The position numbers and the translations under genes are program-made. From a virus: DNA of 27,554 nucleotides. The notes beneath the pieces were generated by a model. That model did no database searches. It was not told the origin of the DNA and was given only the letters and a program-made list of their open reading frames with translations. The first letter of the stretch is position 1, and the number at the start of each line of letters is the position of its first letter. The DNA is taken from the IMG/VR virus record IMGVR_UViG_3300010149_000116, positions 1 through 27,554 of that record, one strand, 5' to 3'. This document shows, in pieces, positions 217 to 26,720 of this stretch.

Positions 217-489
217 ATGAATTTTGTTACTGGTTATCACGATGTTGTTGGCACTTGTTATCAAGGTAAGATTGAAGCATCATACGATACTCTGTGTGAG
301 GTCTTTGGTGAGCCTCAAGTTCTTGATGATGATAAAGTTCAAGTTCAGTGGGCTATCAAGTTTAGTGATGGCACACTTGCTACAATCTATGATTGGAAAG
401 ATGCTAATCGAACATCTGAAATTCTTAAATGGCACATCGGTGGTCACAGCGAAGCCGCAGTCTATAATGTAGTTGATGAGGTTGTCTAA
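217..489 (+). CDS. Conserved phage protein of unknown function, 90 aa
   Basis: The product starts MNFVTGYHDVVGTCYQGK and contains a stretch around FGEPQ..DDKVQVQWAIKF and GTLATIYDWKD. I recognise this as a small family common in marine T4-like phages, without known function. The start at 217 is preferred over an upstream in-frame TTG at 112 because AAAGGA (205-210) lies six bases before ATG 217, and because the upstream part would be encoded by the folded leader. It has no signal peptide or membrane segment. It is the first gene of a four-gene run: its TAA overlaps the ATG of the next gene at 489. Confidence 0.8.
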   Translation: MNFVTGYHDVVGTCYQGKIEASYDTLCEVFGEPQVLDDDKVQVQWAIKFSDGTLATIYDWKDANRTSEILKWHIGGHSEAAVYNVVDEVV

Positions 490-695
490 TGCAACGTCCT
501 GGAAAAAAGCAGAAGGCTATCGGTGGCGGTGATTCCGCTCTGATGTCTCAAATGTTATTCTTCAAGGCATGTAAAGAAGTCTTGAATGAATATGGTCATG
601 ATGATGCCGCATTCTATTTCGAGCAGATTGAATCTCATCTTCGTGACGGTGGTTCTTTGAGTTCAAGCGAAGCAGGGAGAATACTCGGTGTCTAG
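489..695 (+). CDS. Small hypothetical protein, 68 aa
   Basis: This short frame begins at an ATG overlapping the upstream stop (TAATG) and ends by overlapping the next gene, an arrangement typical of coupled translation. The N-terminus is basic (MQRPGKKQK) and the rest looks helical, with alternating charged and hydrophobic residues and an ending SSSEAGRILGV. I do not recognise the family. The coding call rests on tight packing between two convincing genes and on the absence of a competing frame. Confidence 0.7.
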   Translation: MQRPGKKQKAIGGGDSALMSQMLFFKACKEVLNEYGHDDAAFYFEQIESHLRDGGSLSSSEAGRILGV

Positions 696-1652: not shown

Positions 1653-1681
1653 TTGACATATCGTGTGTGATATGTTAATAT
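1653..1681 (+). promoter_or_regulatory. Sigma70-type promoter (TTGACA-N17-TAATAT)
   Basis: TTGACA (1653-1658), a 17-base spacer and TAATAT (1676-1681) are followed by AAGAAATAAT, like the other promoters of this set. It lies in the 67-base gap before the helix-turn-helix gene at 1717 and could also read on into the tmRNA. Confidence 0.8.
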
Positions 1682-1716: not shown

Positions 1717-1989
1717 ATGATTAAGATGACTAAAACTAACCGTGTTCTATCTGCTCTTCAAGCAGGTGAAACTCTGACCGAAGGTCAAATGAAGACTCGC
1801 TTTGGTGTGAGCAATCCTAGCGCGACTGTATCATACATTCGTCAGATGGGTTTCCCAGTGCATTTGAATGCTGGCACTAAAGACTCTCGTGGTCGTGTTC
1901 GTGCCGCGCGTTATCGTCTGGGTAGTGCTACACAAGCAGTTATTGCCGCAGGTTATAAAGCATTGTCGCACAAGCGTCAGGCTGTATAA
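1717..1989 (+). CDS. Small helix-turn-helix protein, 90 aa
   Basis: Residues about 8-50 (RVLSALQAGETLTEGQMKTRF then GVSNPSATVSYIRQMG) read as a helix-turn-helix of the winged type: a first helix, a second helix around TEGQMKTRFGV, and a recognition helix around SATVSYIRQM. A basic tail follows (SRGRVRAARYRLG). This suggests a DNA-binding regulator or a small accessory protein. The start at 1717 has AGGAG at 1703-1707; an in-frame ATG at 1726 is less well placed. It has its own promoter at 1653, and its stop codon lies inside the TATAAATA box preceding the tmRNA. Confidence 0.75.
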   Translation: MIKMTKTNRVLSALQAGETLTEGQMKTRFGVSNPSATVSYIRQMGFPVHLNAGTKDSRGRVRAARYRLGSATQAVIAAGYKALSHKRQAV

Positions 1990-1992
1990 ATA
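1985..1992 (+). promoter_or_regulatory. T4-type late promoter box TATAAATA before the tmRNA
   Basis: An exact TATAAATA, the T4 late promoter -10 element, overlaps the TAA stop of the upstream gene (1987-1989). Transcription from such a box would start near 1998-2000, within the 5' edge of the tmRNA acceptor piece. The same box before the structural gene at 11840 also overlaps a stop codon. Chance occurrence in AT-rich DNA cannot be excluded. Confidence 0.5.
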
Positions 1993-2058
1993 AAGGTATT
2001 CGTTGAAGCAAACCAAAAGGTAGACTGGACGCGGGTGCGATTCCCGCCACCTCCACCA

Positions 2059-2070
2059 AACTCTCTCTGA
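2059..2070 (+). other. tmRNA intervening segment, removed in the mature two-piece RNA
   Basis: The 12 bases AACTCTCTCTGA join the encoded CCA (2056-2058) to the first base of the coding piece (2071). In permuted tmRNAs such a loop caps the acceptor stem in the precursor and is cut out. It is notably short. Confidence 0.75.
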
Positions 2071-2154
2071 GGGGGTGTATAGGTTCGACAGGTATTGATT
2101 AGGAATGTGGAGAATAGGTGTGCAAGCGACCTTAACCGTAAGAAACTCGTAAAT

Positions 2155-2199
2155 GCAAACGATAACAATGCATATGAAGATATCCGCCTAGCGGCATAA
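2155..2199 (+). other. tmRNA tag reading frame (ANDNNAYEDIRLAA)
   Basis: The resume codon GCA at 2155 begins a 14-codon frame ending with TAA 2197-2199, giving ANDNNAYEDIRLAA. The ANDN start is characteristic of alphaproteobacterial tags, and the LAA ending is the ClpXP recognition signal. The segment is not translated from its own start codon; it is entered by ribosome switching on the tmRNA. Confidence 0.9.
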
Positions 2200-2211
2200 T
2201 CTTCGGGGTCA

Positions 2212-2245
2212 GAGGACGCCTAGCAACAGAAGTCCTCATTTTTAT
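2212..2245 (+). terminator. Hairpin and T-rich tail ending the tmRNA
   Basis: GAGGAC (2212-2217) pairs with GTCCTC (2232-2237) across a 14-base loop, followed by ATTTTTATT. It could be an intrinsic terminator or the last helix of the tmRNA coding piece, or both. The moderate stem and large loop make full termination uncertain. Confidence 0.5.
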
Positions 2246-3608: not shown

Positions 3609-3616
3609 TATAAATA
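3609..3616 (+). promoter_or_regulatory. T4-type late promoter box TATAAATA
   Basis: An exact TATAAATA lies in the non-coding gap between the terminator (3560-3589) and the first exported-protein gene at 3652. Transcription would start near 3622. Position between a terminator and a gene start makes this one of the two best-supported late boxes in the window. It implies late expression of the exported cluster. Confidence 0.75.
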
Positions 3617-8469: not shown

Positions 8470-8719
8470 AACATATACAATTAAACGCCGCGAACATCAT
8501 ACGGTGTATCTAACATATGAGGTAGAGATTAACGAAGATGAACTGAAAGAAATCTTCGGTGATGTAGACCCATATGAAATTGGCGAAGATGAACTGTCGG
8601 ATGCGTCAATGGAAGGCGAAATCGAAATGGATATGGTCGATGAAGATTGGTGGTCTATGAACAAAGGCGGCTATGACATTCATTGGGAAATTGAAGAATC
8701 AGGAGAAGACGATGAATAA
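8462..8719 (+). CDS. Acidic hypothetical protein, 85 aa
   Basis: The likely start is ATG 8462 (MSKTYTIKRREHHTVYLTYE), overlapping the stop of the 45-aa frame (ATGAGTAA); ATG 8459 is an equal alternative. An in-frame ATG at 8405 would add residues read from the spacer and is disfavoured. After a basic beta-like start, the protein becomes highly acidic (ASMEGEIEMDMVDEDWW, ending ESGEDDE). Similar small acidic proteins occur in marine phages. The function is unknown. It overlaps the peroxiredoxin gene by eight bases. Confidence 0.7.
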   Translation: MSKTYTIKRREHHTVYLTYEVEINEDELKEIFGDVDPYEIGEDELSDASMEGEIEMDMVDEDWWSMNKGGYDIHWEIEESGEDDE

Positions 8720-9281
8720 AGGTGTAAAACTTCCCGTAGTAAACTTTCAGACTCGTGTGCGGGACGAATCAATCGGTGGGGACAACCCATATCGTTGGCA
8801 GACAGTGAACAGTGAGTTTCTGTTTGGTAGTGCGGATATCAAGAAGCGTGTCGTAGTGTTCTCACTGCCAGGCGCGTTTACACCAACATGTTCGACATAC
8901 CAGTTACCTGACTTTGAGCGTCTGATGGACGAAGGTGAGTTTGCTGATTATGGTATCGACGATGTATACTGTATCTCTGTGAATGATTCGTTTGTGATGA
9001 ACAAGTGGGCTCAAGACCAAGCACTGGACAATGTGAAAGTCGTGCCAGATGGTTCGGGTGAGTTTACTCGCAAGATGGGTATGCTTGTTGATAAGGACAA
9101 TCTTGGTTTTGGATATCGTTCATGGCGTTATGCGATGATTGTTCAGAACGGCGTCATCGAGGCATTCTTACCTGAAGAAGGGTTTGAAGACAACTGTGGA
9201 GAGGATCCGTATGGCGAATCATCACCTCAAAATGTCCTCGAAGTTCTGAAAGGACTTGAAGTGACTGGAGCACCTGTCTAA
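8712..9281 (+). CDS. Peroxiredoxin (Prx5-like), 189 aa
   Basis: The product has VVVFSLPGAFTPTCS (residues 47-61), the peroxiredoxin active site with peroxidatic Cys60 in PGxFTPxC, and later CISVNDSFVMNKWAQ and the RSWRYAMIVQNG segment typical of the Prx5/AhpE-like group. It reduces hydrogen peroxide or organic peroxides in the cytoplasm using thiol reductants; the glutaredoxin domain encoded in nrdA could be one partner (speculation). A second Cys in EDNCGED might resolve the disulfide. ATG 8712 has AGGAG (8700-8704) upstream; the frame extends further upstream but without a better site. Confidence 0.92.
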   Translation: MNKGVKLPVVNFQTRVRDESIGGDNPYRWQTVNSEFLFGSADIKKRVVVFSLPGAFTPTCSTYQLPDFERLMDEGEFADYGIDDVYCISVNDSFVMNKWAQDQALDNVKVVPDGSGEFTRKMGMLVDKDNLGFGYRSWRYAMIVQNGVIEAFLPEEGFEDNCGEDPYGESSPQNVLEVLKGLEVTGAPV

Positions 9282-24734: not shown

Positions 24735-26720
24735 ATGTCCGTTAAAATTGATAAGAAGAAAGACTCTCTACTTGCTGAATACGCTGTGGGGATGCTGAAA
24801 GATTTTTACCTGAATGATTATGAGAAGAGTCCACAAGAAGGTTTCGCAAGAGCATCACTAGCGTGGAGTAAGTATAGAGAAGAGATTGACGACGACCTTG
24901 CACAGCGTCTCTATGACTATGTGTCTAACAAGTGGTTCATGTTTGCCTCTCCTGTATTGTCAAATGCTCCCAATGGTGAGAAGAAAGACAAAGGGATGCC
25001 TATCTCTTGCTTTCTCACATATGTGCCTGACACACTCGAAGGTTTGATTAGTCACTCGTCTGAGTTACGTTGGCTGTCAGTCTATGGTGGTGGCGTTGGT
25101 GGTCACTGGTCAGATGTGCGAACTGTTTCAGACATCGCGCCTGGACCAATGCCATTTCTACATACAGTAGATGCAGACATGATTGCATATCGTCAAGGCA
25201 AGACACGCAAGGGTTCATATGCCGCATACATGGATATCTCACATCCTGATATCGTAGAGTTCATGAACATGCGTATTCCTACTGGTGATGTTCAACGCAA
25301 GGCTCTCAACTTACACAATGCTATAAATATCAGCGATGAGTTCATGCAGTGTGTAGTCGAGAACAAAGACTTCGACTTGCGTGACCCCAAAGACGATAGT
25401 GTAAAAGATACTGTCAATGCTCGTAAGTTATGGGAACGTATTCTTGAGATTCGTTTTCGGACTGGCGAACCGTATCTTAACTTTATCGACACAGCAAACA
25501 ATGCGTTACCGCAACCCCTAAAAGACTTAGGTCTAAAGATTAACGGGTCTAATCTCTGTAATGAGATTCACCTACCGACAAGTGCAGACAGAACTGCTGT
25601 CTGTTGTTTGTCCTCACTGAACTTGGAATACTATGATGAATGGAAAGATACGACTATTGTTCGTGACCTTGTGCGGATGCTTGATAATGTCTTGCAGTTC
25701 TTTATCGACGAAGCACCAGACACAATCACAAGAGCAAAATATAGTGCAGAGCGAGAACGCTCAATCGGACTCGGAGCAATGGGATTCCACAGCCTCCTCC
25801 AAAAACACGGAGTTGCATGGGAGTCCGAAGCCGCAAGAGAAATCAACAAGACCGTGTTCGATAGAATTAAGTCAGAAGCAGTTGCAGAAACTGAACTCCT
25901 TTCCGAAGAGCGTGGCGAGTATCCTGACGGTGTTGGCAGCGGACGGCGTAACTCGCACTTGCTCGCCATCGCACCGAACGCCTCTAGTGGAATAATTCTA
26001 TCAACAAGTCCTTCTATCGAACCATTGAAGGCAAATGCATATACTCACAGAACTCGTGCTGGTTCGTTTCTTGTGAAGAACAAGTATCTCGACGAACTGT
26101 TGACAGAGAAGGGTGAGAACAACGATTCTAACTGGACATCTATTATCACTAAAAAGGGTTCTGTTCAGCATCTTCCGTTTCTTACAGAAGGCGAAAAGGC
26201 TATATACAAGACAGCAGATGAACTTGACCAGAACTGGGTTGTTCAACACGCCGCAGAGCGTCAAGAGTTCATCTGTCAAGGTCAATCTGTCAATCTGTTC
26301 TTTCCTGCGGGAGCGAAAAAATCATATGTCAATGGCGTCCATCTTAGCGCCTGGACGCAAGGACTTAAAGGTCTATACTATCTACGCACCGAAGCCAAAC
26401 AACGCGCAGAGAATGTCTCTGAGAAGGTAGAGCGTGTTGCACTTGCGGGTGATATGCGAACCATTGTATATGGCAAGTCAGATTGTCCATTCTGTTCTAT
26501 GGCAAAGGAAGAACTTCGCTTGCGTGGCATTCCTTTTGATTACATCGACCTAAAAGAAATTGGCAAGACTGCCCGTGAAGTGACAGGTCGAGAAGTTAAA
26601 ACAGTCCCACAAATTTACATCGAAGGTGAATACATTGGGGGTTATGATGAACTTATGGAATACTTTAACAAACCATTAGAAACACAAGAAGACGACGAAT
26701 GTAGAGCCTGCGAAGGTTAG
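24735..26720 (+). CDS. nrdA: Ribonucleotide reductase large subunit with embedded glutaredoxin domain, 661 aa
   Basis: Reduces ribonucleoside diphosphates to deoxy forms for phage DNA synthesis, together with NrdB. Class I marks are present: Cys92 in PISCFLTY, N273-x-C275-x-E277 in SNLCNEIHLP, Cys290/291 in AVCCLSSLNL and the Tyr pair in GLYYLRTEA (548-549). The N-terminal ATP-cone is absent, so dATP activity control through it is missing. Residues about 575-645 are a glutaredoxin: TIVYGKSDCPFCSMA (CPFC 584-587), TVP (623-625) and YIGGYDEL. The last residues ECRACEG keep a Cys pair (656, 659) like the NrdA swinging tail, so the glutaredoxin sits between the catalytic core and the tail. Confidence 0.95.
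   Translation: MSVKIDKKKDSLLAEYAVGMLKDFYLNDYEKSPQEGFARASLAWSKYREEIDDDLAQRLYDYVSNKWFMFASPVLSNAPNGEKKDKGMPISCFLTYVPDTLEGLISHSSELRWLSVYGGGVGGHWSDVRTVSDIAPGPMPFLHTVDADMIAYRQGKTRKGSYAAYMDISHPDIVEFMNMRIPTGDVQRKALNLHNAINISDEFMQCVVENKDFDLRDPKDDSVKDTVNARKLWERILEIRFRTGEPYLNFIDTANNALPQPLKDLGLKINGSNLCNEIHLPTSADRTAVCCLSSLNLEYYDEWKDTTIVRDLVRMLDNVLQFFIDEAPDTITRAKYSAERERSIGLGAMGFHSLLQKHGVAWESEAAREINKTVFDRIKSEAVAETELLSEERGEYPDGVGSGRRNSHLLAIAPNASSGIILSTSPSIEPLKANAYTHRTRAGSFLVKNKYLDELLTEKGENNDSNWTSIITKKGSVQHLPFLTEGEKAIYKTADELDQNWVVQHAAERQEFICQGQSVNLFFPAGAKKSYVNGVHLSAWTQGLKGLYYLRTEAKQRAENVSEKVERVALAGDMRTIVYGKSDCPFCSMAKEELRLRGIPFDYIDLKEIGKTAREVTGREVKTVPQIYIEGEYIGGYDELMEYFNKPLETQEDDECRACEG

Follow-up and report, generated by a model that had tools for sequence, protein, structure and literature searches.

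The origin of the two-piece tmRNAs carried by phages, and the point in infection at which they are expressed, are unsettled, the one detailed study arguing that they are expressed early and were acquired from an alphaproteobacterium. The same questions of descent and timing are raised by a tmRNA gene on a viral contig, the whole of which (an IMG/VR record of 27,554 bases, referred to here as the window) was analysed. Buchholz and colleagues described a two-piece ssrA in phage Melnitz, discussed the related Pelagibacter phage Mosig and found 53 of 133 distinct phage tmRNA structures to be of the two-piece form; they proposed that ssrA had been acquired from an alphaproteobacterium and acts early, from an early promoter (PMC9004378). 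Another paper lists 79 phage tmRNA sequences and is the source of the family RF04321 (PMC11915505), and well over 100 viral permuted tmRNAs were found in IMG/VR. In the light of Melnitz, Mosig and the listed phage sequences, the gene in the window is of a kind already known, and the statement in a preliminary description of this DNA that the phage tmRNAs known to it, in mycobacteriophages, are one-piece was outdated as a picture of phage tmRNAs, two-piece forms in marine T4-like phages having been published in 2022 (PMC9004378).

The permuted gene and its parts

Covariance-model searches identified a circularly permuted tmRNA gene at 1998-2240 on the + strand of the window. The match to tmRNA_permuted (RF04321) covered the full length of the model (1-213) and scored 113.4 bits (E 1e-21) against a curated cut-off of 47 bits. 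The search with the alpha-tmRNA model that had been suggested in the preliminary description scored above threshold (RF01849, 91.4 bits, curated cut-off 50 bits), and this family was the best of the older Rfam subtypes. No difference was found between the gene and RF04321, a family that spans all permuted forms (PMC11915505). ARAGORN reported nothing in the window but does detect a near-identical gene in another record (L103). The 12-nt segment within the gene was considered as the cause of the miss and rejected, since that of L103 is also 12 nt long. ARAGORN missed many other genes found here as well and was the program used in an earlier survey, the tmRNA counts of which are therefore low.

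All parts of the gene lie on the + strand. The alignments to RF04321 and RF01849, together with covariation, place first an acceptor piece (1998-2058) made up of the 5' strand of P2, a T arm with a 5-bp stem (2031-2047), the acceptor 3' strand CACCTCC (2048-2054), the discriminator A2055 and an encoded CCA (2056-2058). Between the CCA and G1 is an intervening segment of 12 nt (2059-2070), the removal of which would yield two pieces. The coding piece (2071-2240) begins with the acceptor 5' strand GGGGGTG (2071-2077), which pairs with the 3' strand at 7/7 positions, G3-U70 included, and continues with a D-arm remnant GGTTCGAC, the P2 3' strand, a tag reading frame (A)ANDNNAYEDIRLAA (codons 2155-2196, TAA 2197-2199) and a 3' hairpin, GAGGAC/GTCCTC (2212-2217/2232-2237), around the conserved CCTAGCAACAGAA. 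The T-rich ATTTTTATT that follows the hairpin is a possible 3' end or terminator; a terminator scan did not call this T-run as a terminator. The preliminary description was right to see a circularly permuted tmRNA of the two-piece type on a phage contig, one that appears related to the T4-like Kyanoviridae. Every element that it named in the upstream acceptor piece was present, as were the tag frame and the stem following it, and the seven-position acceptor pairing was confirmed; of the extent that it gave, from 1993, the gene itself stood but the start did not, the actual start lying slightly inside at 1998.

Mosig (MT647606), a Pelagibacter phage, and Melnitz, a Methylophilales phage, likewise carry a permuted tmRNA on the genome of a marine T4-like phage, and the Mosig tmRNA falls within the same viral tree group as that of the window. 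However, the intervening segment of Mosig is 44 nt long as against 12, the neighbours of ssrA in both phages differ from those in the window, and a glutamine riboswitch has been reported for both (PMC9004378). The alphaproteobacterial permuted tmRNA (RF01849; Caulobacter ssrA) has in common with the window gene its gene order, acceptor stem, the ANDN start of the tag and a 3' CCU.GCAACAGAA motif, but differs in its longer 3' part, its separate branch in the tree and its promoter region.

Other phage records furnished further observations. Menderavirus records (L003/L125 and others; Stenotrophomonas phages) hold a permuted tmRNA, which scores 118.5 bits in Bhz51 and is unannotated in several published records. 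In Caulobacter phage CcrBL9 (L393, about 1501-1535) an unannotated segment matches the part of a permuted tmRNA formed by the T arm and the acceptor end. For the viral permuted tmRNAs of L023, L028, L049, L075, L082 and L124 ARAGORN gave tags that are unusually long, at 22-29 residues, an example being ANDNALSNVTFVDFSAPVTAVNEDFALAA.

The promoter region

A T4-type late promoter, TATAAATA, is predicted at 1985-1992 (+), the box matching at 8/8 positions. In T4 the late box begins at -13, one helical turn ahead of the transcription start, and has no -35 element to accompany it (PMC2988020); by the same numbering the box in the window is read as -13 to -6 and +1 falls at 1998, which is the first base both of the RF04321 match and of the outer P2 pair. 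The late motif of cyanophages is NATAAATA, and middle expression via overlapping early and late promoters has been proposed for RB49 and for cyanophage S-PM2 (PMC2984593). Whilst the late promoters of T4 and the cyanophages serve structural genes, the box in the window precedes a tmRNA, and Mosig lacks TATAAATA at the corresponding place. The window contains seven TATAAATA sites where 0.74 would be expected, every one of them on the + (coding) strand, and those at 3609, 11804 and 19699 lie 20-45 bases ahead of likely start codons. The distance from TATAAATA to the tmRNA is the same in relatives. A gp55 gene was not identified in the fragment.

In a wider set, and among the matches listed, TATAAATA was found in the same short zone in 40 of 104 distinct viral permuted tmRNAs but in none of 112 bacterial ones, although the viral set comes from one IMG/VR pattern scan whose rows are related to each other, so that the counts are not independent. 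Most of the viral boxes lie 64-69 bases before CCTCCACCA, again among the matches listed.

An important consideration is whether TATAAATA might be a plain sigma70 -10 box, giving early expression like that of the Melnitz ssrA, which has been placed behind an early promoter (PMC9004378), and perhaps the tagging of host proteins. Among the matches listed, TTGAC stands 15-19 bases upstream of TATAAATA, at -35 spacing, in 32 of the 44 viral tmRNA promoters that contain the box, a feature that sets these boxes of other phages apart from the late promoters of T4 and the cyanophages. The window also has a putative sigma70-like promoter ahead of the gene upstream of the tmRNA, TTGACA-17-TAATAT at 1653-1681 (+), scoring 10/12 in a consensus scan that yields no more promoters than shuffled sequence does. 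Moreover, TATAAATA was not enriched outside the tmRNA zone of the viral contigs that carry the box there (45 found among the matches listed, 49 expected). This lack of enrichment, together with the sigma70-like -35 in 32/44, means that in the wider set TATAAATA could be an ordinary or hybrid promoter. Against a plain -10 box, however, no good -35 precedes the box in the window, where that region reads ATTGTC, or the equivalent position in L207, L010, L064 and L041, and for this reason the late-promoter reading is strongest for the window and the phages closest to it. The seven sites within the window point the same way, as does the finding that sigma70-like promoters elsewhere on the scanned viral contigs are mostly of the TATAAT type; the combination TTGAC-16/18-TATAAATA occurred at least 34 times at tmRNAs and twice elsewhere among the matches listed. 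A plain sigma70 promoter is considered unlikely, though it is the most serious of the alternatives, and the combination of TTGAC with TATAAATA in the viral set agrees with a promoter in which early and late elements overlap.

Phage setting and descent of the gene

The gene for the large subunit of ribonucleotide reductase (NrdA) at 24735 has 77% identity with its counterpart in phage C48C1 (Kyanoviridae), and the window shares genes with record L004; among the genes of the fragment no T4 marker, gp23 for example, was identified. Of the records that carry the same tmRNA, the two nearest relatives, G011 and G013, have a reductase 91% identical and a tmRNA 88.9% identical to those of the window, and in both a homologue of the 68-aa phage gene at 489-695 (+) lies directly before the tmRNA. 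In L207/L208, L103, L010 and L064 the tmRNA is immediately preceded by a homologue with 64-69% identity. In the window three genes separate the 489-695 gene from the tmRNA, to which the TATAAATA box is still attached. A 90-aa gene at 1717-1989 (+), with a weak winged-HTH match (PHROG 4973), has a stop codon that overlaps TATAAATA; its homologue in L041 precedes the tmRNA. Directly downstream of the tmRNA is a DUF805 membrane protein (2262-2561, +; PF05656, E 3e-18), to which nothing matched in 20 related records in a search run without a positive control. These comparisons show that the tmRNA and a neighbouring gene have been passed down together within a set of marine, probably T4-like phages. 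The possibility that it represents contamination from a bacterial contig was ruled out, since relatives with phage genes share the tmRNA in the same gene neighbourhood.

A permuted tmRNA was present in 3 of 50 related records, many of them fragments, and absent from a related record of 149 kb and from the complete C48C1 genome; that of the third tmRNA-bearing record (G039) is of a different, beta-like type. Being present in so few related records, the tmRNA gene counts as accessory; the stretch that contains it, ahead of the 7374 gene, is variable. The beta-like permuted tmRNA of G039 (L209, 600-935; reductase 84% identical) has the CCTTGTTACCCAAG motif and the tag ANDDVYTEDFALAA and is likewise upstream of a 7374-type gene, so that related phages hold different tmRNA types at a similar place. 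Two other genes of the window deserve mention: the reductase large subunit (24735-26720) has a C-terminal thioredoxin/glutaredoxin-like domain (PHROG 22 match, residues 559-646), and a peroxiredoxin-like protein (Redoxin, AhpC-TSA; 8673-9281) is kept beside the 7374-type gene in relatives.

The preliminary description had held that the phage captured an alphaproteobacterial-type ssrA and that the gene gave a handle on the host. Its assignment of the tmRNA to the alpha-like type holds on the present comparisons: RF01849 is the best older subtype, and the D arm, the ANDN start of the tag and the CCTAGCAACAGAA motif are all alpha-like. These features would also be expected if the ssrA of an alphaproteobacterial host (e.g. 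SAR11, SAR116 or Rhodobacterales) had been captured recently, and in one tree the viral group stood beside the Pelagibacterales, with weak support (16-68). However, one branch parted 66 alpha-like viral tmRNAs, that of the window among them, from 73 alphaproteobacterial ones, with an ultrafast bootstrap of 100, an SH-aLRT of 98 and recovery in 200/200 bootstrap trees. In a larger set 105 of 107 viral rows grouped without bacteria, and a tree from just the initial 85 bases of the coding piece produced the same viral/alphaproteobacterial split, which required 3 changes when judged by the acceptor piece and 9 by the tag and 3' part. When one betaproteobacterial tmRNA and beta-like phage tmRNAs were added they joined the viral side, the alphaproteobacteria staying nearly together. 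The trees were built from about 300 columns of fast-evolving RNA, betaproteobacterial row L513 was left out and cyanobacterial permuted tmRNAs were not in the sample; as the RNA is short and the bacterial and viral sets were both chosen by one sequence pattern, the deep branching order is uncertain. On these trees the tmRNA is shown to belong to a phage group separate from the sampled alphaproteobacterial tmRNAs.

When 385 alphaproteobacterial genomes were searched directly, only short conserved stretches matched, and no close copy of the window tmRNA was found in the sampled bacteria. The RF01849 scores of the gene and its closest relatives, which are phages, ranged from 91 to 120 bits, as against 220-299 bits in eight alphaproteobacterial genomes. 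Recent capture from an alphaproteobacterial host is accordingly judged improbable; the tree split and the lack of a close bacterial copy argue for inheritance within phages, which the evidence suggests has been long. Thus, of the earlier claim, the alpha-like type stood and the capture did not, and the gene gives no handle on the host, the assignment of one by tmRNA similarity having failed. A short intervening segment was also tried as a hallmark of phage genes and rejected, as the segments of bacteria, SAR11 above all, vary over equal lengths (4-34 nt within the pattern). The distance from CCA to G1 is as short as 4-5 nt in L005, L012, L073, L080, L097, L119 and L123, and values this short occur in bacteria too.

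Conservation, proposed working and meaning

Conservation of the RNA was assessed in an alignment of 13 phage relatives, with only nested pairs of the acceptor, T, P2-end, small and 3' stems counted. Standard pairs made up 96.4% of helix cells, whereas in a slid-partner control 48-56% of cells were paired, and changes on both sides were found in 13 of 26 pairs, a figure reached in none of 500 shuffles. The T stem takes many different sequences among the relatives, with both-side changes in 4/5 pairs and 100% of cells paired, and the 3' hairpin has such changes in 6/6 pairs. The acceptor pair A67-U6 is replaced by G-C in L207, and G3-U70 is invariant (13/13). The tag frame is open in 13/13 relatives and ends each time in Ala-Ala-stop; substitutions within it number 344 at third codon positions compared with 153 and 166 at the others, and a 6-nt deletion in one relative is in-frame. 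Folding energy alone was uninformative (z -0.61). Three records (L041, L045, L064) have an additional ~28-nt hairpin that follows the small stem and precedes the tag (alignment A1, columns 164-191) and is missing from the window. That the gene is a degenerate or non-functional remnant of ssrA is very hard to credit, for while its RF01849 score is below those of cellular alphaproteobacterial genes and its 3' part is shortened (23 nt from stop to AACAGAA, bacterial median 40), the compensatory changes in the acceptor, T, P2 and 3' stems and the conservation of the tag frame across phages argue against it.

Judged by its sequence, therefore, the gene is shown to have the gene order, the acceptor stem with G3-U70 and CCA, the P2, the tag frame and the 3' hairpin of a permuted tmRNA. 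The best explanation as a whole, and one that is judged probable, is that it encodes a phage-type permuted tmRNA, inherited among phages, which would be transcribed late, processed by the host and used in ribosome rescue. Host polymerase with a phage late sigma factor would carry out gp55-type late transcription from 1998, the mature 5' end or within a base or two of it, with possible early read-through into the tmRNA from the sigma70-like site at 1653-1681. Host RNase P, tRNA 3'-processing and other RNases would then excise the 12-nt segment, leaving two pieces linked through pairing in the acceptor stem and P2. Charging of the tmRNA with alanine would fall to host AlaRS, and host SmpB and EF-Tu would bring it to ribosomes stalled on broken mRNA; no SmpB was found in the window or in seven related records. 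The tag, ending in RLAA, would mark the peptide for ClpXP-type proteases. The benefit is likely to be that ribosomes are kept free while mRNA is cut late in infection, and rescue when RNA is degraded, the use put forward in the preliminary description, is a plausible one.

A broader reading may be entertained tentatively, namely that the permuted tmRNAs of T4-like marine phages form an old phage lineage with its own mode of expression, in which early and late promoters overlap and the late box sets the start at the mature 5' end, so that rescue is sustained into late infection, and that phages may have helped to spread the permuted tmRNA among bacteria. Neither the promoter placement nor the separate phage lineage was found in the literature searched, the coverage of which left out most subscription journals, and the promoter placement looks to be a new aspect. 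The evidence presented here points to phage inheritance and to a promoter of late type, or one in which early and late types overlap, positioned at the RNA's first base. It carries the warning that phage ssrA is unfit for naming hosts, and it turns the question of why phages carry a tmRNA into a testable one of timing.
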